Shown here: in pieces, positions 3,376 through 62,357 of the stretch
Numbering within the stretch: position 1 is the stretch's first letter
Layout of the letters: each line of letters begins with the position of its first letter
Assembly (NCBI GenBank): GCA_003635185.1
Contig: PYJA01000021.1
Coordinates: 1-64,000 of the forward strand
Source of the DNA: Candidatus Poribacteria bacterium
GTDB taxonomy: Bacteria; Poribacteria; WGA-4E; WGA-3G
Reading direction: 5' to 3'
DNA: 64,000 nucleotides
Notes under the pieces: generated by a model
What the model was told of the DNA's origin: nothing
Database searches by the model: none
What the model saw: only the letters and a program-made list of their open reading frames with translations
Position numbers and translations under genes: made by a program

Positions 3376-4353
3376 ATGGATAAAATAAAAGAGACTTTTG
3401 ACTTTGCGAAACGTCAGATTTCAATTTCAAATTGCTATGATGCGAACGTGGACGTTGTCCTGTTTGATGGAGATTGTCATGAACTACTAACACAGATTCC
3501 ATCAAACTCGCTGGACTTGGTTATCACCTCTCCACCATACAACGTAGGCAAAAAATATGAGAAAAAAATGTCCTTGCAGGCATATCTTAAAAATCAGGAA
3601 CCTGTAATAGTCGAACTCGTTCGGGTGCTTGCCGACACCGGAAACCTTTGCTGGCAGGTAGGCAATTATGTTGAGAAGGGCGAGGTCTTTCCGCTTGATA
3701 TTTATTTTTATGAAATTTTTAAACGGTTCGGCTTAAAATTGCGGAATAGGATCATCTGGCGATTTAATCACGGTTTGCACTGCAAAAATCGGTTTTCGGG
3801 ACGCTACGAAGTTATCTTATGGTTTTCCAAAAGCGATGAATACATTTTCAATCTTGATCCGGTACGTGTTCCATCTAAATACCCAGGTAAACGCCATTTC
3901 AAAGGGCCAAAACGTGGTCAACTTTCAGGAAATCCGCTTGGCAAAAACCCATCTGATATTTGGGATATAGTCACACATGACTGGGAAGATGGCGTATGGG
4001 ATATTCCAAACGTGAAAGCGAACCATCCAGAAAAAACCGAACATCCGTGCCAGTTTCCTGTGGAATTAGTGCAGCGATGCGTGTTGGCACTCACGCAGCC
4101 CGAGGGAGTCGTTTTTGACCCGTATTGTGGTGTTGGCTCGACGATTATCGCTGCCTTGCAGCATGACCGCAAAGCAATTGCCGCAGAACTTGATTCAAAC
4201 TATATTACGATTACGCGTGAACGGATACAGAAGTTTGCAGATGGGGAATTGCCGCTACGCCCGCTCGGTAAACCGATCCACGAACCGACAGGGAAAGAAC
4301 GTGTGGCGCAGCTGCCTCTGGAATGGAATAGGGAACCGCAATTATTGCTATAG
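3376..4353 (+). CDS. DNA methyltransferase, SPPY type (probable N4-cytosine)
   Basis: This 325-residue beta-class DNA methyltransferase has catalytic TSPPY (51-55) and SAM-binding DPYCGVGS (248-255). The text around the first motif, DLVITSPPYNVGKKYE, is classic for type II N4-cytosine or N6-adenine methylases. The serine at the first position favours N4-cytosine. The start has AAGGGAG at 3360-3366. The stretch WDIPNVKANHPEKTEHPCQFP before the SAM motif is the usual WD.P..K...HP.P.P region of this group. Third of the four-gene methylation set. About 190 bases with no gene separate it from the AlkB fusion. Confidence 0.88.
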   Translation: MDKIKETFDFAKRQISISNCYDANVDVVLFDGDCHELLTQIPSNSLDLVITSPPYNVGKKYEKKMSLQAYLKNQEPVIVELVRVLADTGNLCWQVGNYVEKGEVFPLDIYFYEIFKRFGLKLRNRIIWRFNHGLHCKNRFSGRYEVILWFSKSDEYIFNLDPVRVPSKYPGKRHFKGPKRGQLSGNPLGKNPSDIWDIVTHDWEDGVWDIPNVKANHPEKTEHPCQFPVELVQRCVLALTQPEGVVFDPYCGVGSTIIAALQHDRKAIAAELDSNYITITRERIQKFADGELPLRPLGKPIHEPTGKERVAQLPLEWNREPQLLL

Positions 4354-4543
4354 TATCAATGTAGGAGTCCATATCGGTTACAATTATTCAATTGACAACA
4401 AACAACTCTTGCTTGAATTTTGGGAACAAGAGGCAGTAAAATTAAAATATCTATACATTTCAATAAACCTAAAACAGACAAAAAAGGCCTCTACACTATT
4501 TGTCAATTGACAGTCCAACGATTATACTGAAGGGACTCAAAAC

Positions 4544-6139
4544 ATGTTCTATATACACTGCTATGATGATAATTACTACAGCCCCAGCGATAACCTCCGA
4601 GAATTATTAAAGACGCAGATTGTTCAACCATTTAGAGACGCGAAGCCGGACGTAGTACGACTGTATCATCGACGACCAAACCCTGATTACAATACAATTA
4701 ATTCTCTCCAAGAGAATATTTTGGAAAGAGGAAGTACCAACTTTGATATTCAATCCGTTGATGAGCATTTTGGGGTTTTTTCTCCAAGAGAGAAAGTGCT
4801 ATTTTACTGTGCCGATTACATGTCTATGCACCTTACTGGTAGTTACCACATATATAGCAAATATATAATGCGACAGAAACATATATCAGAATGTAACCAC
4901 ATAATTTTTGTTGACTATGGTTGTGGTCCTTTAACTTCAGGTATTGCGTTCTGGAATGCGCTGAGTAAACCGAATATCACTTATATAGGTATTGATATAG
5001 CAAAAAGCATGCTTAATCAAGCATCAGAAATCAATAGAAATAGTCCTATTGGTAATAGTATTCCATATTTCAAGAATATCACTTTAAGTCAAAATTACGA
5101 AATAGTTCCCGAGTTACTAAGTGCTATACAGAGGGATACTCCTTCCGATACAGTGATTGTATTAAACTTCTGCTATGTCCTGGCACCAATAACATTCATT
5201 GGTGACATCCAAAATCTTATTGATTCGATTCACAGTGCAGTACAAGTTTCTAATAATAAAATATGCATGTTATATCAAAATCCTTCAAAGTTAGCGAATG
5301 CACATATACATTGGTCGAAACTTCAAAATGAAGTGTTGAATTATAGTTATTTTCCCATACAAAATTTTGTAACACAGGGGGAAGATGTTAGTTATAGATA
5401 TGAAGTCTTAATGACGGGTAGAATGAGTCAAGTGATTGATGTCAGATATGATATACAATTGGTAGTATTTTTAGGGAGTCAAGACATGGATGCAACACAA
5501 TTACCATTACTGCCAGATAATAAGCAAACTCCTCAGCCAAAACCCAATGAAAAAAAAGAGGTGTTGATCAAGGGGATACCAGGACTGCGGTATATAGAAA
5601 ACTATATCACAGAGGATGAACAGGATCAGTTATTAGCACATGTGGACAAAGAAGGACTTTGGTTAAAAGACTTAAAGAGGCGCGTTCAGCATTACGGTTT
5701 TAAGTATAACTACAAAGCACGCAAGGTGGATATGAGCATGCGTGTAGGTGAGTTGCCAAAATGGCTGAAAGATCTCAGCGTAAAATTGTATCAAGAGGGT
5801 TACATGCCAAAAATTGCGGATCAGGTGATCGTCAATGAATACGAACCTGGACAAGGAATTTCTGCACATATTGATTGTGAACCCTGTTTTCAAGATACAA
5901 TAACCTCCTTGAGTTTAGGCTCCAGTTGTGTTATGGAATTCACAAACAAATTCGACAAAAACGAAAAGGTTCCGCTTTGGTTAGATCCAGGAAGTCTTAT
6001 CGTCCTGAGTGATGAAGCAAGATATAGTTGGTTACATGCGATCCCTCCCAGACAAAAAGATAAGTTAGATGGTCGTGAGGAGCACAGGTCCAGAAAGCGG
6101 AGGGTATCGCTTACATTTAGAAAAGTGATCATAGGTTAA
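4544..6139 (+). CDS. SAM methyltransferase fused to AlkB-like 2OG-Fe(II) dioxygenase
   Basis: The 531-residue protein has two recognisable parts. Residues about 90-280 look like a class I SAM methyltransferase, with motif I DYGCG (124-128) and GIDIAKSMLNQA as the acidic-loop strand. No NPPY or SPPY motif is evident there. Residues about 345-531 are an AlkB-like oxygenase with iron ligands H442 and D444 (HID), distal H498, and R520/R526 in RRVSLTFR, which bind 2-oxoglutarate. The fold around NEYEPGQGISAHID is that of ALKBH8/AlkB proteins. ALKBH8 also joins an AlkB and a methyltransferase, but in the opposite order. AlkB enzymes remove N-methyl groups oxidatively from DNA or RNA. Placement after three DNA methylases suggests DNA as substrate, but RNA is possible. 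Start has GAAGGGA upstream. Confidence 0.8.
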   Translation: MFYIHCYDDNYYSPSDNLRELLKTQIVQPFRDAKPDVVRLYHRRPNPDYNTINSLQENILERGSTNFDIQSVDEHFGVFSPREKVLFYCADYMSMHLTGSYHIYSKYIMRQKHISECNHIIFVDYGCGPLTSGIAFWNALSKPNITYIGIDIAKSMLNQASEINRNSPIGNSIPYFKNITLSQNYEIVPELLSAIQRDTPSDTVIVLNFCYVLAPITFIGDIQNLIDSIHSAVQVSNNKICMLYQNPSKLANAHIHWSKLQNEVLNYSYFPIQNFVTQGEDVSYRYEVLMTGRMSQVIDVRYDIQLVVFLGSQDMDATQLPLLPDNKQTPQPKPNEKKEVLIKGIPGLRYIENYITEDEQDQLLAHVDKEGLWLKDLKRRVQHYGFKYNYKARKVDMSMRVGELPKWLKDLSVKLYQEGYMPKIADQVIVNEYEPGQGISAHIDCEPCFQDTITSLSLGSSCVMEFTNKFDKNEKVPLWLDPGSLIVLSDEARYSWLHAIPPRQKDKLDGREEHRSRKRRVSLTFRKVIIG

Positions 6140-7484: not shown

Positions 7485-8342
7485 ATGAGAAATCGTCTTA
7501 TTACCAGTTTTCCTCTGTTCCTCTTAGTGTTGATAACAATTATCGGTTGTAGCGTTAAAACCTCTGACATTAACCCGCTGCCTGTAGAAATATCACAATT
7601 TGCTCCACATTTAGAAACGCTCCAAGAGAGATACGACCTAACCGATTCCTTAAAAACTACCAAAATGATGGTCACGATTCAGGAAGCAGATCGCAAACCT
7701 GAAGAACTCCGCGAATTACTATGGTATAAGAAATCTGAGGATGGCGGTGAACTTCTACATATTCAAGCCTTAGGGGCGTTCAATGATACAAAAGGGATTG
7801 CAATTGCAAACCGAGATCAATTCCTACTTGTTTTACCTGATGAACGAGAGGGATATTCAGGTGAGTTATCTGACGGTATCTTGCAAAAAATCTTCGGTAT
7901 TGACCTACGTGTTTCTGATGTGCTCAGTGCTATCTTTGCAAATCCGTTTCTTGACGGACGCACCGAAAAGTTAAAAATCACGAATTCTGGGCAGAAGTTT
8001 GTCGTTACCCGCCCCGGTGTTGAAGCGGGACACACAGAGACTATCACGCTTCTTGTAAAAGAAGGTGAGCCGCGTGTGACAGAGTGGCATATCAATGACA
8101 AAGACAAGGTGTTGCAACAAAGTGTCGTTTTTGAAGATTATCGTGAAGTTGATGGCATCCTAAGACCTCACAAGGTTGAAATAAAACGGCCGCTTGAAAA
8201 AACGCGCGTTGTTGTGAAAATGACAAAAGTCCAACTGAACGTTGAAATTCCGGACAGTAAATTTGATTTTGAACCGTTTCTGACTGAAGGTATGAAAATT
8301 ATGCCGTTTTCGGAACTTGAGGAGACAGATGTCCCCGAATGA
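7485..8342 (+). CDS. Lipoprotein, LolA/LppX-like, unknown function
   Basis: The N-terminus is a lipoprotein signal ending IIGC with the acylated cysteine at residue 22. The mature 260 residues look like a beta-rich carrier fold of the LolA/outer-membrane lipoprotein-sorting type, with alternating strands such as GGELLHIQALGAF, KFVVTRPGVEAG and a late DSKFDFEP motif. The last is typical for proteins of this fold. No catalytic residues are evident. The gene starts at the base after the argD stop and its end overlaps the ispE start by four bases, so translation is likely coupled. The precise family is not certain. Confidence 0.6.
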   Translation: MRNRLITSFPLFLLVLITIIGCSVKTSDINPLPVEISQFAPHLETLQERYDLTDSLKTTKMMVTIQEADRKPEELRELLWYKKSEDGGELLHIQALGAFNDTKGIAIANRDQFLLVLPDEREGYSGELSDGILQKIFGIDLRVSDVLSAIFANPFLDGRTEKLKITNSGQKFVVTRPGVEAGHTETITLLVKEGEPRVTEWHINDKDKVLQQSVVFEDYREVDGILRPHKVEIKRPLEKTRVVVKMTKVQLNVEIPDSKFDFEPFLTEGMKIMPFSELEETDVPE

Positions 8343-9226
8343 ACAAAGCCAAAACGTTACGGGTTCGCGCCCATGCCAAGATCAACCTTTATCTGGACGT
8401 TGTCGGCAAACGGGAAGATGGATATCACAACCTTGAAACCGTTTTTCATTCAATCGGTTTACATGATGAGGTGCTTCTTCGTGAACGCTCAAAGATGGGG
8501 ATTACAGTTCATTGTGACCATCCCGATGTCCCATCCGATTCCCGAAACCTCGCCTATCGTGCGGCGCAATCTCTAAGCGATGTCGTTGATGGATTTGGGG
8601 GACTGGAGATACAGATTCGCAAACGGATTCCCGTAGCAGCTGGATTAGCAGGCGGCAGTGCAAATGCAGCTGCCGTTCTTCACGGTGTAAATGAACTGTA
8701 TAAATTAGGGTTGTCAGAAAATGCACTCATGGAAATCGGCGCGCAATTAGGGGCAGATGTGCCATTCTGCTTGCATGGCGGCGCAGCTTTCGGCACCGGT
8801 ATAGGGGAGATTTTAACCCCATTACCCGCGTTATCTGAGGTCCCACTTGTTCTTATCAATACAGGTACCGCCATTTCAACTGCCGATATTTTCAAAAATT
8901 TAGATATTATCTTGACAAAGCGGAAAAATGAAAGTATAATTATAAAGACTTGTGTGGAGAAGAGTGATTTAGTCGGCATAGGAAAAAATTTGTACAACCT
9001 TCTTGAAGTACCAGCTTTTTTCAAACATCCCGAATTAGCTGTGCTAAAAACGCAGTTGTCTACACAGACGGGGTGCTACGGTGCACTCATGTCGGGAAGT
9101 GGAGCTACGTTGTTTGCTTTCATGGAAAACATCACGGCAGCGCAGCAGTGCGAATCATTCTTCAAAAACAGCGTCAGTTTTTGCACAACTACAGTAACTA
9201 ATTCTGTTGGTGTGCGTATTCAATAA
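8339..9226 (+). CDS. ispE: 4-diphosphocytidyl-2-C-methyl-D-erythritol kinase
   Basis: This GHMP-family kinase of 295 residues carries out the ATP-dependent fourth step of the MEP isoprenoid pathway. Evidence is the N-terminal AHAKINLYLDVVGKREDGYH, the ATP loop PVAAGLAGGSANAAA, and GCYGALMSGSGATLFA near the end. It overlaps the preceding lipoprotein gene by ATGA. tRNA-Gln and rplY follow, and pth lies a few genes on, an arrangement like the common ispE-L25-pth neighbourhood. The polyprenyl synthase that would use its pathway's product is at 23.4 kb. Confidence 0.95.
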   Translation: MNKAKTLRVRAHAKINLYLDVVGKREDGYHNLETVFHSIGLHDEVLLRERSKMGITVHCDHPDVPSDSRNLAYRAAQSLSDVVDGFGGLEIQIRKRIPVAAGLAGGSANAAAVLHGVNELYKLGLSENALMEIGAQLGADVPFCLHGGAAFGTGIGEILTPLPALSEVPLVLINTGTAISTADIFKNLDIILTKRKNESIIIKTCVEKSDLVGIGKNLYNLLEVPAFFKHPELAVLKTQLSTQTGCYGALMSGSGATLFAFMENITAAQQCESFFKNSVSFCTTTVTNSVGVRIQ

Positions 9227-14867: not shown

Positions 14868-15770
14868 ATGGCTGAAACCGTTTTTGTGGGAGATCACGAA
14901 GTTGCATTTCCAGGACCGCATCTCGGTGTGCTGCGGGACTGCAATGCTGTGGTGGATTCGGCAGAAGGCTTGCATCAACAGATAGCAGAGGATGGGTACT
15001 TACTGGTTCGCGGTTTGATTGACAAGGACAAGGTAATCGCAGCGCGGCGCGCTATCCTTGAATATGCCGAAGGCAATGGAAAAGATGAAGTTTTTAAGCC
15101 GGGAACTGAAATGATGGAGGCTATCGCCGGTCCGGGCAGTCCAGGGCGAACTATGGGCGCACCTGCTGTTACACATCATCCCGATGTGCTGTCCGTTTTG
15201 GAGGGTGATGAACTCTTTACCTTTTTCCGAAACTTCTTTGGTGGCGATACCCGTACGTTTGATTACAAATGGCTTCGGTTTGTCCGTCCTGATGGTTGGT
15301 CGGGCCCCCATTTTGATTTCGTCTATATGGGTAGAGGCTCACAGCAGTTGCATACCTGCTGGATTCCTTTTGGGGATGTGCCTGCAACGATGGGAACACT
15401 CACTGTACTTGTTGGATCGCACAGTCTGGATAGTTTTGCACGTATTCGCGATACTTACGGCAAAACTGATGTGGATAAAGATGGCACACCAGGGCATTTT
15501 GGACGCGACCCGATGGCAATCAGTGAAAAATACGGCGGGGAATGGCAGACAGCAGACTTTGAGATGGGCGATATGATTGTTTTTACTATGCACACGATGC
15601 ACACCTCTACCAAAAATCTTTCGGATCGGTGGCGCATCAGTTGTGACATACGGTTCCAGCCCGCGGAACACCCGATTGATGAACGGTGGGTCGGTAAAAA
15701 TCCGATTTCACACACGGGAAGTCAGAAGATTTCTTTTGAGGAAGCGAAGAAACAGTGGGGATTAGAATAG
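14868..15770 (+). CDS. Phytanoyl-CoA dioxygenase (PhyH) family protein
   Basis: This 300-residue Fe(II)/2-oxoglutarate oxygenase of the PhyH family has an N-terminal DGYLLVRGLIDKDKV (the usual opening strand) and iron ligands H and D in GPHFDFVY. The distal His lies in the TMHTMHTSTKNLSDRWRISCD region, with the Arg for 2-oxoglutarate in DRWR. PhyH proteins are much expanded in Poribacteria and their substrates are mostly unknown. The gene has the ribosome site GGAGGAAATA and stands alone. Confidence 0.88.
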   Translation: MAETVFVGDHEVAFPGPHLGVLRDCNAVVDSAEGLHQQIAEDGYLLVRGLIDKDKVIAARRAILEYAEGNGKDEVFKPGTEMMEAIAGPGSPGRTMGAPAVTHHPDVLSVLEGDELFTFFRNFFGGDTRTFDYKWLRFVRPDGWSGPHFDFVYMGRGSQQLHTCWIPFGDVPATMGTLTVLVGSHSLDSFARIRDTYGKTDVDKDGTPGHFGRDPMAISEKYGGEWQTADFEMGDMIVFTMHTMHTSTKNLSDRWRISCDIRFQPAEHPIDERWVGKNPISHTGSQKISFEEAKKQWGLE

Positions 15771-18940: not shown

Positions 18941-20371
18941 TTATTTAATTTTACCATGTTCCCAATGTTCCTGCAAACGTTTCCCCCAATTTGATATAAT
19001 TCTTTGCGGACCTCGGTGAATAATTTGTTGTCTATTGAGTTGACTTTCTTGTGCAAGGAGTCTTTCTCGGCACCTCTTAATGATTTCCTGATATTCTGGA
19101 GCATCGACGAGGTTTTCCGTTTCCCACGGATCATTGTGTTTGTCAAATAATTGTGCAAGTCCAAGTTGCTCGGGATCTGGACCGGGTGGCACAAAATCCT
19201 CCACCGCTTTTGGTTTATATTCTGTAACGTATTTATATTGGTCAGTGACAATCGCGCGTCCCCAATAATTACTCTCTATGTAAGCATATTCCCGCCAAGC
19301 AACATCTTCTCCTTCAGCAAGAGGTCGGAGACTGGTCCCTTGTACATCTTCAGGAGGGTCAATGCCTGCGTAATCACAGATTGTAGGAAATAGGTCTACA
19401 CCAGAGACGAAATGCGTTTCGTCAAACCGATCTTTCTTAACAGAAACGTTTTCCCCTAAACATGCCATAATAAACGGAACCCGCACGCTTTCCTCATAAA
19501 GCGAAAATTTCTGAAACATCTGATGGCTTCCGCACGCTTCACCGTGGTCGGCACTAAAGAGGATTAACGTGTTATCATAGAAAGGCGTTTGCCGCAGCAG
19601 CGATAGCACTCTTCCAATCTCTGCGTCAACTTTTTCAATGAATCTATAATAATTCCACCTGAAATAACGCCACTGAAGTTCGTCCCAATCCCGAACAGCT
19701 TTTAGGATGCGTGCATGAATAAGTGCGTCATCAACCCGCCTACAGACGTGATGTAATATTGTTTCACGTTCATCATAGTCAAAGTTTTCAGGAAGTGGTG
19801 GCAATTCATCTTCTGTAAGAATTCCCTGCTCCACAGGATTTGGAATATGTTTTTCCTCATGGTTGTGTAGATATTCACACACATCATGCGGATCAACGTA
19901 ACCAATTTGCAGATAGAACGGCTCATTACCATCGTAATTCGTTAGGAAATCTGCTACCGCGTGTGTAGATGCTGAATCGTAATATGCAGCACCGCCTGCG
20001 CCTATATCGTGTCCTCCGTAATAAAGCACCTCAAAACTTTCGCGTACATTTCTGCCGGGAACATGCCATTTTCCACAATGGAATACCTTATAGCCACCAG
20101 ACCTAAGGATCTGCCCGATATCAGGAATTTTTGTGTGAAGTTGTCCACCGTTAAAAGGCACACCTGTCTCGGATGTATATAATCCTGTTGCCCAGCTTGA
20201 CCGTGCAGCAGCGCAGACAGGGTCAGTACAATACGATTTCTTAAAGGAGGTTCCATTTCGGTGGAGTAGGTCGATATTAGGCGTGTGGAGATACGGATTT
20301 CCGTAAGCCGATAGGGCATCCCAGGAATGCTGGTCAGTGTTAATGAAGAGAATATTGGGACGTTTGTTCAT
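18941..20371 (-). CDS. Sulfatase (type I, formylglycine)
   Basis: The 476-residue alkaline-phosphatase-superfamily sulfatase begins RPNILFINTDQHSWDAL, which includes the first metal ligand (D13). The formylglycine motif is C53-A-A-A-R57 followed by SSWATGLY, the Cys-type site that needs a formylglycine-generating enzyme. FSADHGEACGSH supplies the remaining metal ligands. There is no signal peptide, so it is probably cytoplasmic. The substrate (choline sulfate, sugar sulfate or other) cannot be told. It overlaps the preceding unknown gene by four bases. Confidence 0.9.
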   Translation of the reverse strand: MNKRPNILFINTDQHSWDALSAYGNPYLHTPNIDLLHRNGTSFKKSYCTDPVCAAARSSWATGLYTSETGVPFNGGQLHTKIPDIGQILRSGGYKVFHCGKWHVPGRNVRESFEVLYYGGHDIGAGGAAYYDSASTHAVADFLTNYDGNEPFYLQIGYVDPHDVCEYLHNHEEKHIPNPVEQGILTEDELPPLPENFDYDERETILHHVCRRVDDALIHARILKAVRDWDELQWRYFRWNYYRFIEKVDAEIGRVLSLLRQTPFYDNTLILFSADHGEACGSHQMFQKFSLYEESVRVPFIMACLGENVSVKKDRFDETHFVSGVDLFPTICDYAGIDPPEDVQGTSLRPLAEGEDVAWREYAYIESNYWGRAIVTDQYKYVTEYKPKAVEDFVPPGPDPEQLGLAQLFDKHNDPWETENLVDAPEYQEIIKRCRERLLAQESQLNRQQIIHRGPQRIISNWGKRLQEHWEHGKIK

Positions 20372-21171
20372 GAAGGGTCCCCCGTCTTCTCTTTAAGGAC
20401 TAACGTCTCAAAAGTACTGGAAACAATAACGATGTTCCCGTTTGCATCAACCCACCAATATGATGGCAAAACGCCTGTGCCATAAAGGTAATAACCATCA
20501 AGTGGGGTTGGGGAGTGGACTGAATCAAGAAAACCGAGTTTGTTTTTGGGTCTGAGTTGCTCAAGATCATCAAGCAAGGCGATATCTACATCATCACCTA
20601 ATGCTTTCAGCCTTTCAGCAAGTGCGGGAATCACGTCTAAAAGTGCCCAATTGCACGTCAATGGAAAGGAGTTGTTCACTGTTCCTGCCGTGATTTCTGC
20701 TCCATTAATGCCAAGTAGAATCTCTGCATATGAGGTAAGCCGTCCATCCCACTTCAGTGTGGAATATCTGTCATTACAACTATTTTGAGCATCAACCCGC
20801 CAACTACCATAAAGAGGACGGTAGCATTCATTCTGGCAATGGAATTGGAGACGTAAATCTTCACCACTCGTTGTATTTTGGTATTGGACATTATAGTTCC
20901 AAATATCATCGTTGCGCTTCTGGCGTTCAACAATAACTGTTCCAATACTTAGTACCCCTTTCTGATTACCCCTTCTTTTATAGCCTCGCCAGAAATTCGG
21001 CAAAATCTGATAAACATGCTTTTTAAAATCTTCAGTATCCGCGCTTACGCTGTCAGCAGCAGATTTGACTTCAGACTCATCAAGTAATTTGATCAATATC
21101 TGTGCAAAGTCAGGGTTTTGTGCACCATGATTATAGTCAAACGACCAATGTAGTGGGTTGCTATCGTCCAT
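20368..21171 (-). CDS. Protein of unknown function upstream of sulfatase
   Basis: The 267-residue protein is not recognised. It has no signal peptide or membrane segment. It shows a beta-rich middle (SIGTVIVERQKRNDDIWNYN) with several cysteines (about 115-150, CQNEC and NSCNDRYSTLKWDG) and a C-terminal half with DGYYLYGTGVLPSYWWVDANG. Its stop overlaps the sulfatase start (ATGA), so the two are translated together and probably act on related matters. No start further upstream is favoured. Confidence 0.6.
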   Translation of the reverse strand: MDDSNPLHWSFDYNHGAQNPDFAQILIKLLDESEVKSAADSVSADTEDFKKHVYQILPNFWRGYKRRGNQKGVLSIGTVIVERQKRNDDIWNYNVQYQNTTSGEDLRLQFHCQNECYRPLYGSWRVDAQNSCNDRYSTLKWDGRLTSYAEILLGINGAEITAGTVNNSFPLTCNWALLDVIPALAERLKALGDDVDIALLDDLEQLRPKNKLGFLDSVHSPTPLDGYYLYGTGVLPSYWWVDANGNIVIVSSTFETLVLKEKTGDPS

Positions 21172-21264
21172 GATTTTACGGGGTTTGGGTTTAAGTGATA
21201 AAGTGCTTGGGCAAGCGTTCTATGTAATGTTTTTAGTTTTGTGTTTTAGCATACTCCACATATT

Positions 21265-58699: not shown

Positions 58700-59926
58700 A
58701 TGGCACTTGCAACAACACTATATTTTCCAGAAGTCGGTCCCCAATGGGAAGACTGGATCCAAGTAATCAACGTAGGTACAGAAGAAACCCGTGTAACAGG
58801 CATAGCAAGACACGCAGCCAACGGCCAACCTACTTGGTCTGATGAAAAAGAGATTTCCCCATTTGAATGTTGGACACCGAACGTGGAGGCAATTAAACAG
58901 AATTCGTCAATGCAGCTTTCTGCTGATGAACCGATTGTAGCGGAACGACACATGCACAACAAAACAAATATTCTCGATTTTGTAGGTGCAGCGGAGGAAT
59001 ATGAAACAGTTGGTTTGCGTTTGTTCTTTCCAGAATTGGTGCCTGGCGCATTAGATTGGTTCCGATTTTTGAACGTTGGCGAGGCGGATGCGTTGGTAAA
59101 CATAATCGTCCGTAATCGACGCGGTGATATTGTCAGGCAACGCCACCATTCAATCAAACCACAATGCTGTTGGGATATTGCCGAGGGTTTGATGGGGAAT
59201 GTGCAAGGCACGCTTGAAGTACAAAGCACGCAACCGATCGTTGGTGAAAGACATCTGCATTATCAAGGCGGGAAAACGTGCGTTGGGCAATATGGACAAG
59301 TTATCTCTGATGCACCGAAAACTCTATACTTTCCAGAGGTTGGGCCAGCATGGCAGGACTGGGCAATTATTGTCAATGTTGGTAGAGAAAGGGGGGATGT
59401 TACGCTAATTGCACATGACGATGGAACTGGAAACCCGGTAACGACGATGGAACGCGAATTGGATCCTTTTGAGTGCTGGATTCCGAAAATGGAAGATATT
59501 AAAATCAAATCTTCCATTTTGATACGTAGTGATCAACCGATTGTGGCTGAACGACACATGCACAGTGGTACCGCTGTAATTGATTTGCCAGGTGCTTCCG
59601 AAGAAGGTGGACATGTTGGACTTCGCTTGTTCTTCCCTGAAGTTGCGAGTGGTGCAAGAGACTGGTTCCGTTTCCTAAATGTCGGAGAAGACGACGCATT
59701 GGTTAACATCATTGTCCGAAATAAAAGGGGTGATATTCGACGGCAAATCCATCGACGGATAAAACCGCGATGTTGTGCAGATGTTGACGAAGCCGCTATG
59801 GGGAACATCCGTGGTTCTGTTGAAGCGCAAAGTTCACAACCCATCGTTGGTGAAAGGCATCTGCATTACCAATCTGGACACAGAGGGGCAGTGGTTGGTG
59901 AATACGGTGTCGTTATTGGTGAATAA
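58700..59926 (+). CDS. Four-repeat beta protein (DUF5719-like)
   Basis: The 408-residue protein consists of two near-identical halves, each with two modules of about 100 residues (A, B, A, B). Units share YFPEVGP.W.DW, a strand pair, and PIVAERHMH or PIVGERHLHY. The B modules have a CC pair (QCCWDI and RCCADV). The pattern resembles DUF5719-type beta repeats, but here there is no signal peptide. The strong site AAGGAGA precedes the ATG. It is followed, only 3 bases on, by the probable selenoprotein and then the SDR gene, so the three probably work together, but its role is unknown. Confidence 0.6.
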   Translation: MALATTLYFPEVGPQWEDWIQVINVGTEETRVTGIARHAANGQPTWSDEKEISPFECWTPNVEAIKQNSSMQLSADEPIVAERHMHNKTNILDFVGAAEEYETVGLRLFFPELVPGALDWFRFLNVGEADALVNIIVRNRRGDIVRQRHHSIKPQCCWDIAEGLMGNVQGTLEVQSTQPIVGERHLHYQGGKTCVGQYGQVISDAPKTLYFPEVGPAWQDWAIIVNVGRERGDVTLIAHDDGTGNPVTTMERELDPFECWIPKMEDIKIKSSILIRSDQPIVAERHMHSGTAVIDLPGASEEGGHVGLRLFFPEVASGARDWFRFLNVGEDDALVNIIVRNKRGDIRRQIHRRIKPRCCADVDEAAMGNIRGSVEAQSSQPIVGERHLHYQSGHRGAVVGEYGVVIGE

Positions 59927-59929
59927 AAG

Positions 59930-60502
59930 ATGGCGTGGATTCAAACAGTAGAAGAAGCAGAAGCGGAAGGTATTGTAAAAGAGGAATATGACGCAGCGAT
60001 AGCACGAGCAGGTCGTCTTTACAATATCGTCAAGTTATTCAGTGTCCGCCCGAAAAGCATGCGGGCTTTTGTAGAACTCTACAAAGTAGTGATGCACGAC
60101 GACGAATCCCCTCTCAGTCGCATACAACGCGAGATGATTGCTACCGTCGTTTCAAAAGTGAATCAGTGCCACTACTGAATGGTCGCGCATGCAGATGAGT
60201 TGCGTGACCAACTCACAGATGAACATCTTGCGAAACACATTGTATCAGATTTCCGGACTGCTGATATTGACGAGGTAACAAAAGCTATCCTTGAATTCGC
60301 TGTCAAGGTGACCGAAGCAGCGCATACCGTCACATCAGCTGACCTTCAACATCTTCGTAACTACGGTTTGACTGATGAAGTTTTGTTCGCTATTGTAGAA
60401 GTCGTTGGATTTTTCAGTTATGTTAATCGGATAGCAGACGCATTCGGAATTGAATTAGACGATTTTTTAGAACAGAGGTGGACCTGTGAATCTGAACAAT
60501 AA
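59930..60502 (+). CDS. Probable selenoprotein, AhpD/carboxymuconolactone decarboxylase family (UGA read as Sec)
   Basis: The frame 59930-60175 continues in the same frame after UGA (60176-60178) to 60502. Reading UGA as one residue gives one 190-residue AhpD-like protein. The active site is normally CHYC: here it is C80-H81-Y82-U83 followed by MVAH with H87, so selenium would replace the resolving cysteine. The second part (EVTKAILEFAVKVTEAAHTV) completes the family fold. A stem-loop with TGAGTTG (60196-60202) and CAACTCA (60209-60215) is located inside the coding region as bacterial SECIS elements are. The pair with the SDR gene suggests redox work on a shared substrate. A stop mutation is the alternative. 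Confidence 0.75.
60181..60215 (+). promoter_or_regulatory. SECIS-like hairpin after in-frame UGA
   Basis: Two exclusive foldings exist. TGAGTTG (60196-60202) pairs with CAACTCA (60209-60215), loop CGTGAC with G second, 24 bases from the UGA. Alternatively GGTCGCGCA (60181-60189) pairs with TGCGTGACC (60201-60209), one G-U pair, loop of 11. The first fits the bacterial SECIS pattern of a short G-bearing loop at a moderate distance. Confidence 0.55.
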
Positions 60503-61232
60503 AATAGCAATTGTGACAGGGGCAGGACAAGGCATTGGGAAAGCGATTGCCCTCAGGCTTGCCAGCTCAGGTGCTAATGTTGCTATCATGGATTTAAACC
60601 TACCATCAGCAGAAGTTGTTGGCAAGGAGATAGAAAAACTTGATCGACGCGCACTTCCTATTCAAGCGGATGTTTCGCAGTCTACTGATGTTCACGCCGC
60701 TGTTGACAAAGTACTTGCCGAATTTGGACGTATTGATATTCTCGTCAATAATGCTGGGATTGCTGGAAGAACGCTGCCGCTAACTGATTTAGATGAATCA
60801 GATTGGGACGCAGTGATAGGTGTGAATCTGACAGGTGTTTTTCTCTGTTGTAAGGCGGTTATTGACACGATGATTGCACAGGATTACGGCAGAATAGTAA
60901 ATATCGCCTCAATTGCTGGCAAAGAGGGCAACCCGACTCTTATTCCGTATTCTGTGTCTAAGGCAGGGGTTATTTGTTTAACAAAGGCACTGGCAAAAGA
61001 GGTGACAGACTATAACATCCGTGTAAATGCGGTATCGCCTGCGGTCATTGAAACACCGATTTTGGAGGGCATGGCACAGTCGACGATTGACTATATGGTA
61101 AGTAAGATTCCATTGGGACGCGTTGGCAAACCGGAGGAGGTTGCTGCTGTCGTTAATTTTTTAGCGTCAGATGAAGCAAGTTTTGTGACGGGGCAGTGCT
61201 ACGATGTAAGCGGTGGTAGGGCTACGTATTGA
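60486..61232 (+). CDS. SDR-family oxidoreductase (FabG-like)
   Basis: The 248-residue short-chain dehydrogenase has the NAD(P) motif TGAGQGIGKAIALRLA, NNAG, catalytic Ser in NIASIAG, and YSVSK (Tyr and Lys). It starts with GTG, and its first 17 bases overlap the end of the preceding probable selenoprotein gene. AGAGG lies before it. It probably works with the upstream gene. The substrate is unknown. The last 16 codons recur in a remnant at 61755-61814. Confidence 0.9.
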   Translation: MNLNNKIAIVTGAGQGIGKAIALRLASSGANVAIMDLNLPSAEVVGKEIEKLDRRALPIQADVSQSTDVHAAVDKVLAEFGRIDILVNNAGIAGRTLPLTDLDESDWDAVIGVNLTGVFLCCKAVIDTMIAQDYGRIVNIASIAGKEGNPTLIPYSVSKAGVICLTKALAKEVTDYNIRVNAVSPAVIETPILEGMAQSTIDYMVSKIPLGRVGKPEEVAAVVNFLASDEASFVTGQCYDVSGGRATY

Positions 61233-61345
61233 ATTCACTATACTTTGAATATACTAATGAAATTACAATATAAAACAAGAGTCTACTTCATTTTCATTGA
61301 CACATGAAAACATTTATGATTTACTACACGTTAAGGAGACACAAG

Positions 61346-61750
61346 ATGAAAGTTGTTCTACTATTTACAATACTTTTCTGTGCAATCACTGTATCTGCCC
61401 AGGGCGAGTTAACATCTGATGATCTAAAACAGATCCGCTCAATTATTGAAGAGAAAGTTGACCTTGATAAAATACGCTTAATCGTCAATGATGAAATCAA
61501 AAAAGAAATTGCTAACTCTGAAGAGCGTATGAAAGAGTATATCGACATCAAAATTGAAAGTATAGAAAAACGTCTTATGACTTACAACTGGGTGATATAC
61601 GTACTAACACCTCTTATTGTGGCAGCGATAGGTATACCTACTGCAATTATGGCATGGCGCGGAATCAAAGAGAGCAATCAAGACAAACGCATTGAAGAAC
61701 TCACAAGAGAAATAGAAACACTGAAGCAACAACGGATCGTAAATCCGTAA
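61346..61750 (+). CDS. Coiled-coil protein with signal and C-terminal helix
   Basis: The 134-residue protein has a signal (MKVVLLFTILFCAITVSA), a charged coiled coil (KIRLIVNDEIKKEIANSEER), one membrane helix (NWVIYVLTPLIVAAIGIPTA) and a second short coil (RIEELTREIETLKQQR). The ATG at 61346 is preferred because AAGGAG precedes it. It is paralogous to the gene at 61881 on the other strand. Function is unknown. Confidence 0.7.
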   Translation: MKVVLLFTILFCAITVSAQGELTSDDLKQIRSIIEEKVDLDKIRLIVNDEIKKEIANSEERMKEYIDIKIESIEKRLMTYNWVIYVLTPLIVAAIGIPTAIMAWRGIKESNQDKRIEELTREIETLKQQRIVNP

Positions 61751-61880: not shown

Positions 61881-62234
61881 TCATGAACTTACAATACGCT
61901 GCTGTTTCAGTGTTTGAATTTCCTGCGTGAGGTACTCTATTTTATTCTCTAATTCTTTATATTTTGAACTACGCCATGCAACAATGATTTGTGGAATTCC
62001 AACTATCGCGATTAAAGCAATGACCACGCCAAACAACATGTTTAATCGTTTTTCACCACTGTCAATCTTAATATTAATATACTCTTTCATACGCGTTTCG
62101 GATTCTGAAATCTCTTTCTTGATTTCATCTTTGATAATCAAGCGTATTTTGTCAAGGTCTGTCTGCGTTAAATCACCAAAGACAGGTACAGTAATTGCAC
62201 AAAAGAATATTGAGAAAAGTAGGACATTTTTCAT
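61881..62234 (-). CDS. Coiled-coil protein, paralogue in inverted orientation
   Basis: The 117-residue protein has a signal (MKNVLLFSIFFCAITVPVFG), a coiled coil (KIRLIIKDEIKKEISESETR), one helix (LFGVVIALIAIVGIPQIIVA) and the end ETLKQQR-like QTLKQQRIVSS. It matches the gene at 61346 in every part, including the last eight residues. The ATG at 62234 is chosen as the signal begins there. The pair converges with 130 bases between. Confidence 0.7.
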   Translation of the reverse strand: MKNVLLFSIFFCAITVPVFGDLTQTDLDKIRLIIKDEIKKEISESETRMKEYINIKIDSGEKRLNMLFGVVIALIAIVGIPQIIVAWRSSKYKELENKIEYLTQEIQTLKQQRIVSS

Positions 62235-62357
62235 AGATTGTTTCCTTGACGTATATTTAATCATATTTGTTTATGATTGTCAATGAAAATTCAGAACCAT
62301 GCCAATACAGAAAAAGGCGGGACAGAACCCCGCCCCTACAATGAAACAAAGTTACAA

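Follow-up and report, generated by a model that had tools for sequence, protein, structure and literature searches.

Positions 59930-60502 of the window, that is, of the whole 64,000-nucleotide stretch of DNA analysed here, very probably encode a selenocysteine (Sec)-containing AhpD-like oxidoreductase (CMD family, TIGR01926) of Candidatus Poribacteria bacterium, in which an in-frame UGA would be read as Sec. At the sequence level, the selenoprotein gene that an initial annotation had proposed here is supported by a UGA that is invariant among orthologues, by purifying selection, by a covarying hairpin, by a family profile match and by the Sec machinery of related genomes. For the source organism itself we infer the insertion of Sec and, likewise, the enzymatic reaction. 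The features discussed below are the following:

58700..59926, + strand: two-repeat protein, conserved, upstream; no Pfam/NCBIfam match; syntenic neighbour
59930..60502, + strand: predicted ahpD-like selenoprotein gene (TIGR01926/PF02627), 190 aa with Sec83; motif C80-H-Y-U83, His87
60176..60178, + strand: in-frame TGA, predicted to be read as selenocysteine; corresponds to the second Cys of CxxC in Cys homologues
60196..60215, + strand: bacterial SECIS-type hairpin; 7-bp stem UGAGUUG/CAACUCA, 6-nt loop CGUGAC; compensatory change across phyla
60486..61232, + strand: SDR oxidoreductase, downstream; its GTG start at 60486 overlaps the 3′ end of the ahpD-like gene; syntenic neighbour

The ahpD-like gene and its in-frame UGA

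Translation from the ATG at 59930 to the TAA at 60502 meets a single in-frame stop, the TGA at 60176-60178 (codon context ...VNQCHY[TGA]MVAHADELRDQL...), and on either side of this codon the frame is uninterrupted, as initially annotated. The predicted protein carries C-H-Y-U followed by His. The UGA had been placed at the second cysteine of the family motif with the histidine kept, which agrees with C80-H-Y-U83 and His87; when the site was compared with Cys homologues, a Cys stood there in both of the printed alignments (2pfx and 3c1l). The protein matches the TIGR01926 profile above its curated cut-off (E=2.6e-45, 154.4 bits against 81.8) and that of PF02627 (CMD) above its own (49.9 bits against 23), and the solved Cys homologues matched are PDB 2pfx, 3c1l, 2prr, 2oyo and 6k40. 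Other frames of the window that can be read through a TGA (4070-6139, 20002-21219, 7485-8576 and 15000-15707) were set aside, as they have neither a Pfam domain across the TGA nor a redox motif there.

AhpD-type enzymes reduce peroxides or disulfides via a CxxC + His site. In the mechanism we propose, SelB with Sec-tRNA(Sec) would bind the hairpin at 60196-60215 so that the UGA is read as Sec, and the C80-H-Y-U83 redox pair with His87 would replace the Cys-X-X-Cys-X3-His site of these enzymes. The selenol of Sec83, being more reactive, would attack the peroxide or disulfide, and Cys80 would then resolve the intermediate. By analogy with the family, the product is probably a thiol/selenol peroxidase or a disulfide-reducing enzyme.

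Conservation of the UGA and of the hairpin

The source organism belongs to the genus of RHO1_bin_11. We searched 59 genomes of its family and obtained 35 full-length orthologues including that of the window. Exactly one TGA is present in all 35, none has a sense codon at the site, and in the 34 inspected codon by codon the TGA falls at the same codon every time; the comparison of close relatives suggested in the initial annotation returned UGA throughout. One match (G032), truncated where its contig ends, stops short of the UGA site and lies outside the full-length count, and a distant match with 32% identity (G035) is a Cys paralogue with CQYC. The median dN/dS is about 0.06 upstream of the UGA and about 0.11 downstream, indicating purifying selection on both sides. 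In a wider scan of GTDB genomes, which used N-terminal family motifs and no selection on the site itself, 59 loci were found, 55 of them with a readable site, from about ten phyla. The codon is TGA in 54 of these 55 and TGC (Cys) in one, from Bipolaricaulota, a proportion that does not represent Sec against Cys forms in the family at large, since the seeds were taken from the Sec-bearing group and there is overlap between the Poribacterial loci and the orthologue set. The TGA loci come from Poribacteria, Acidobacteriota, Planctomycetota, Gemmatimonadota, Latescibacterota, Marinimicrobia, Nitrospinota, Methylomirabilota, Bdellovibrionota and Myxococcota.

A hairpin with a G in its loop had been reported 18 bases after the UGA, and we located it at 60196-60215, starting 18 nt downstream of the codon, with arms at 60196-60202 (UGAGUUG) and 60209-60215 (CAACUCA) and the loop CGUGAC between them. 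It folds with -7.2 kcal/mol (z -2.44), and an equally good G-loop stem in an allowed place appeared in 151 of 5000 synonymous recodings (3%); from the window sequence alone the hairpin is only modestly unusual. An Rfam search of the window found no SECIS. A case built on a single sequence would be weak; it is the comparative evidence, conservation and covariation, that settles the matter. In a set of 26 sequences from several phyla, chosen from loci with a stem at the window's place, 96.7% of the stem cells are paired, compared with 26-45% when the partner is slid. The same set holds 45 double-change cells against 17.7 +- 3.1 in shuffles, none of 500 shuffles reaching that number, and its covariation score is 0.599 against 0.189 in shuffles. 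The Poribacterial set alone contains one covarying pair. The loop reads CG(G/T)Gxx in nearly all members of the sets compared, with the two Gs invariant, and the Leu codon TTG stands immediately 5′ of it in all 34 Poribacterial copies inspected. In more distant groups, for example Latescibacterota, the best stem lies at another place.

Selenocysteine machinery and alternative readings

Among 41 near-complete genomes of the family, selB is present in all, selA in 39 and a tRNA-Sec with the UCA anticodon, adjoining selB, also in 39. The source genome has selD, which itself carries a TGA in its KCAGU motif. This SelD (contig C15:29458-30384 of the assembly, G000; L006:1483-2529) is a predicted selenoprotein, Sec-type SelD being a known kind. 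The initial annotation had deduced that the organism has selA, selB, selC and selD. For selD this holds in the source genome, while its assembly, 81.7% complete, yielded no selA, selB or selC; as a statement about the lineage the deduction stands, with selA, selB and selC in nearly all relatives. On inspection the best selB matches in the source genome were EF-Tu and other GTPases, the best selA match a different PLP enzyme and the best tRNA-Sec matches tRNA-Ser genes, and all of them were rejected. The closest relative is the sister genome G019. Contig C106 of the assembly follows its selB/selC region collinearly at 93% identity and breaks off within a transposase ORF, about 1 kb before the position where selC would be expected. 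This ORF is of the DDE type (C106:3-1067; L088), is truncated by the contig end and has dapB on one side and the expected position of selC/selB on the other; no matching DNA is present there in the sister. The neighbourhood of the sister's selA is wholly absent from the source assembly except for dispersed repeats. Those repeats (L074:8293-8453 and L074:10784-11093) have dozens of copies in the source genome, many matching on both strands, and are MITE-like.

That all three genes are missing from the organism's own assembly could mean that the species has recently lost them and that its ahpD-like gene is a relic, though working in relatives. We regard this as improbable: the assembly is 82% complete, C106 breaks off within a transposase ahead of selB/selC and the surroundings of selA are gone altogether; apart from the TGA that it retains, the selD frame is unbroken, and the ahpD frame is likewise intact, with 93% identity to that of the sister genome. 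A gap in the assembly is likelier than loss.

The TGA might instead be a true stop, leaving a pseudogene or two genes, one for 82 aa and one for 107 aa that would begin with the ATG at 60179, which follows the TGA immediately in the window. Such an ATG is found in only one of 34 copies, Ile, Thr or Val codons taking its place in the others, and purifying selection persists past an invariant TGA that is followed by a covarying hairpin, which makes this explanation very improbable; we rejected a chance stop or a pseudogene in view of the invariant TGA together with the selection on both sides. A frame open on both sides would equally be expected if UGA were reassigned in the lineage, or decoded by read-through as a different amino acid such as Trp. 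We consider this the least probable explanation and a scarcely credible one, as the site aligns to Cys and not to Trp, relatives carry SelA, SelB and a tRNA-Sec with the UCA anticodon, table 11 translates the neighbouring genes normally and the SECIS-type hairpin is conserved. We retain the reading of the UGA as Sec.

Gene neighbourhood and comparison with known selenoproteins

The grouping of the gene with an SDR dehydrogenase and a repeat protein, noted initially, was recovered both in the window, where the three genes are adjacent, and in nearly all close Poribacterial relatives, which preserve the order repeat protein - AhpD(Sec) - SDR. The repeat protein (408 aa, two similar halves) is encoded by a gene ending 3 nt upstream of the ahpD-like gene. 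In the window the 3′ end of the selenoprotein gene overlaps the start of the SDR gene, so translation of the SDR may be coupled to that of AhpD(Sec). This arrangement suggests that AhpD(Sec) and its neighbours may be functionally linked. It is conceivable, though we think it unlikely, that the three form a Poribacteria-specific redox operon acting jointly on one particular substrate, such as organic hydroperoxides encountered in the sponge host. Further along the window, two similar small membrane-type proteins that share the start K.VLLF.I.FCAITV are encoded next to each other on opposite strands (61304-61750, +, and 61881-62264, -).

Poribacteria are uncultured, largely sponge-associated bacteria. 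Our results indicate that they use selenocysteine, with selA, selB and selC close to universal across the family that we searched, and a standard table-11 annotation would split the Poribacterial selenoprotein gene in two. Within the set of papers searched, and leaving aside two incidental hits, none names selenoproteins together with Poribacteria; one study of sponge symbionts noted SelA and SelB together in the majority of symbiont bins (PMC5649159).

The gene had been put forward as a probable new selenoprotein, a claim that does not hold for the family: CxxU AhpD-like selenoproteins of TIGR01926/PF02627 were described in 2005 from the Sargasso Sea (27 sequences; PMC1088965) and again in the 2008 GOS paper as AhpD-like 1/2, with 299 Sec and 902 Cys forms of AhpD-like 1 (PMC2398784), and a 2026 review places the CxxU AhpD-like selenoprotein under TIGR01926 (PMC13188914). 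With the family long known, the Poribacterial gene extends its distribution and context without introducing a new principle; the novelty lies in the orthologues from Poribacteria and in the gene order conserved among them. The Cys-form peroxidase-related enzymes of TIGR01926 listed above belong to the same family and have the same catalytic layout by sequence, with Cys at the second motif position (in the printed alignments of 2pfx and 3c1l) where the window protein would have Sec. NF041238 (AhpD_rel_CFYUT; hypothetical protein 1 of the Sargasso Sea set) shares with the window protein a related AhpD domain with CxxU, and at 79.7 bits against a cut-off of 175 the latter is not a member. The hairpin of the window fits the bacterial SECIS as described in PMC1088965, directly downstream and with a small G-containing apical loop. 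With the Sargasso Sea and GOS selenoproteins the window gene has TIGR01926, the CMD family, CxxU and a SECIS-type hairpin directly downstream in common, and it differs from them in its host lineage, Candidatus Poribacteria, and in its neighbourhood, with the repeat protein upstream and the SDR downstream.
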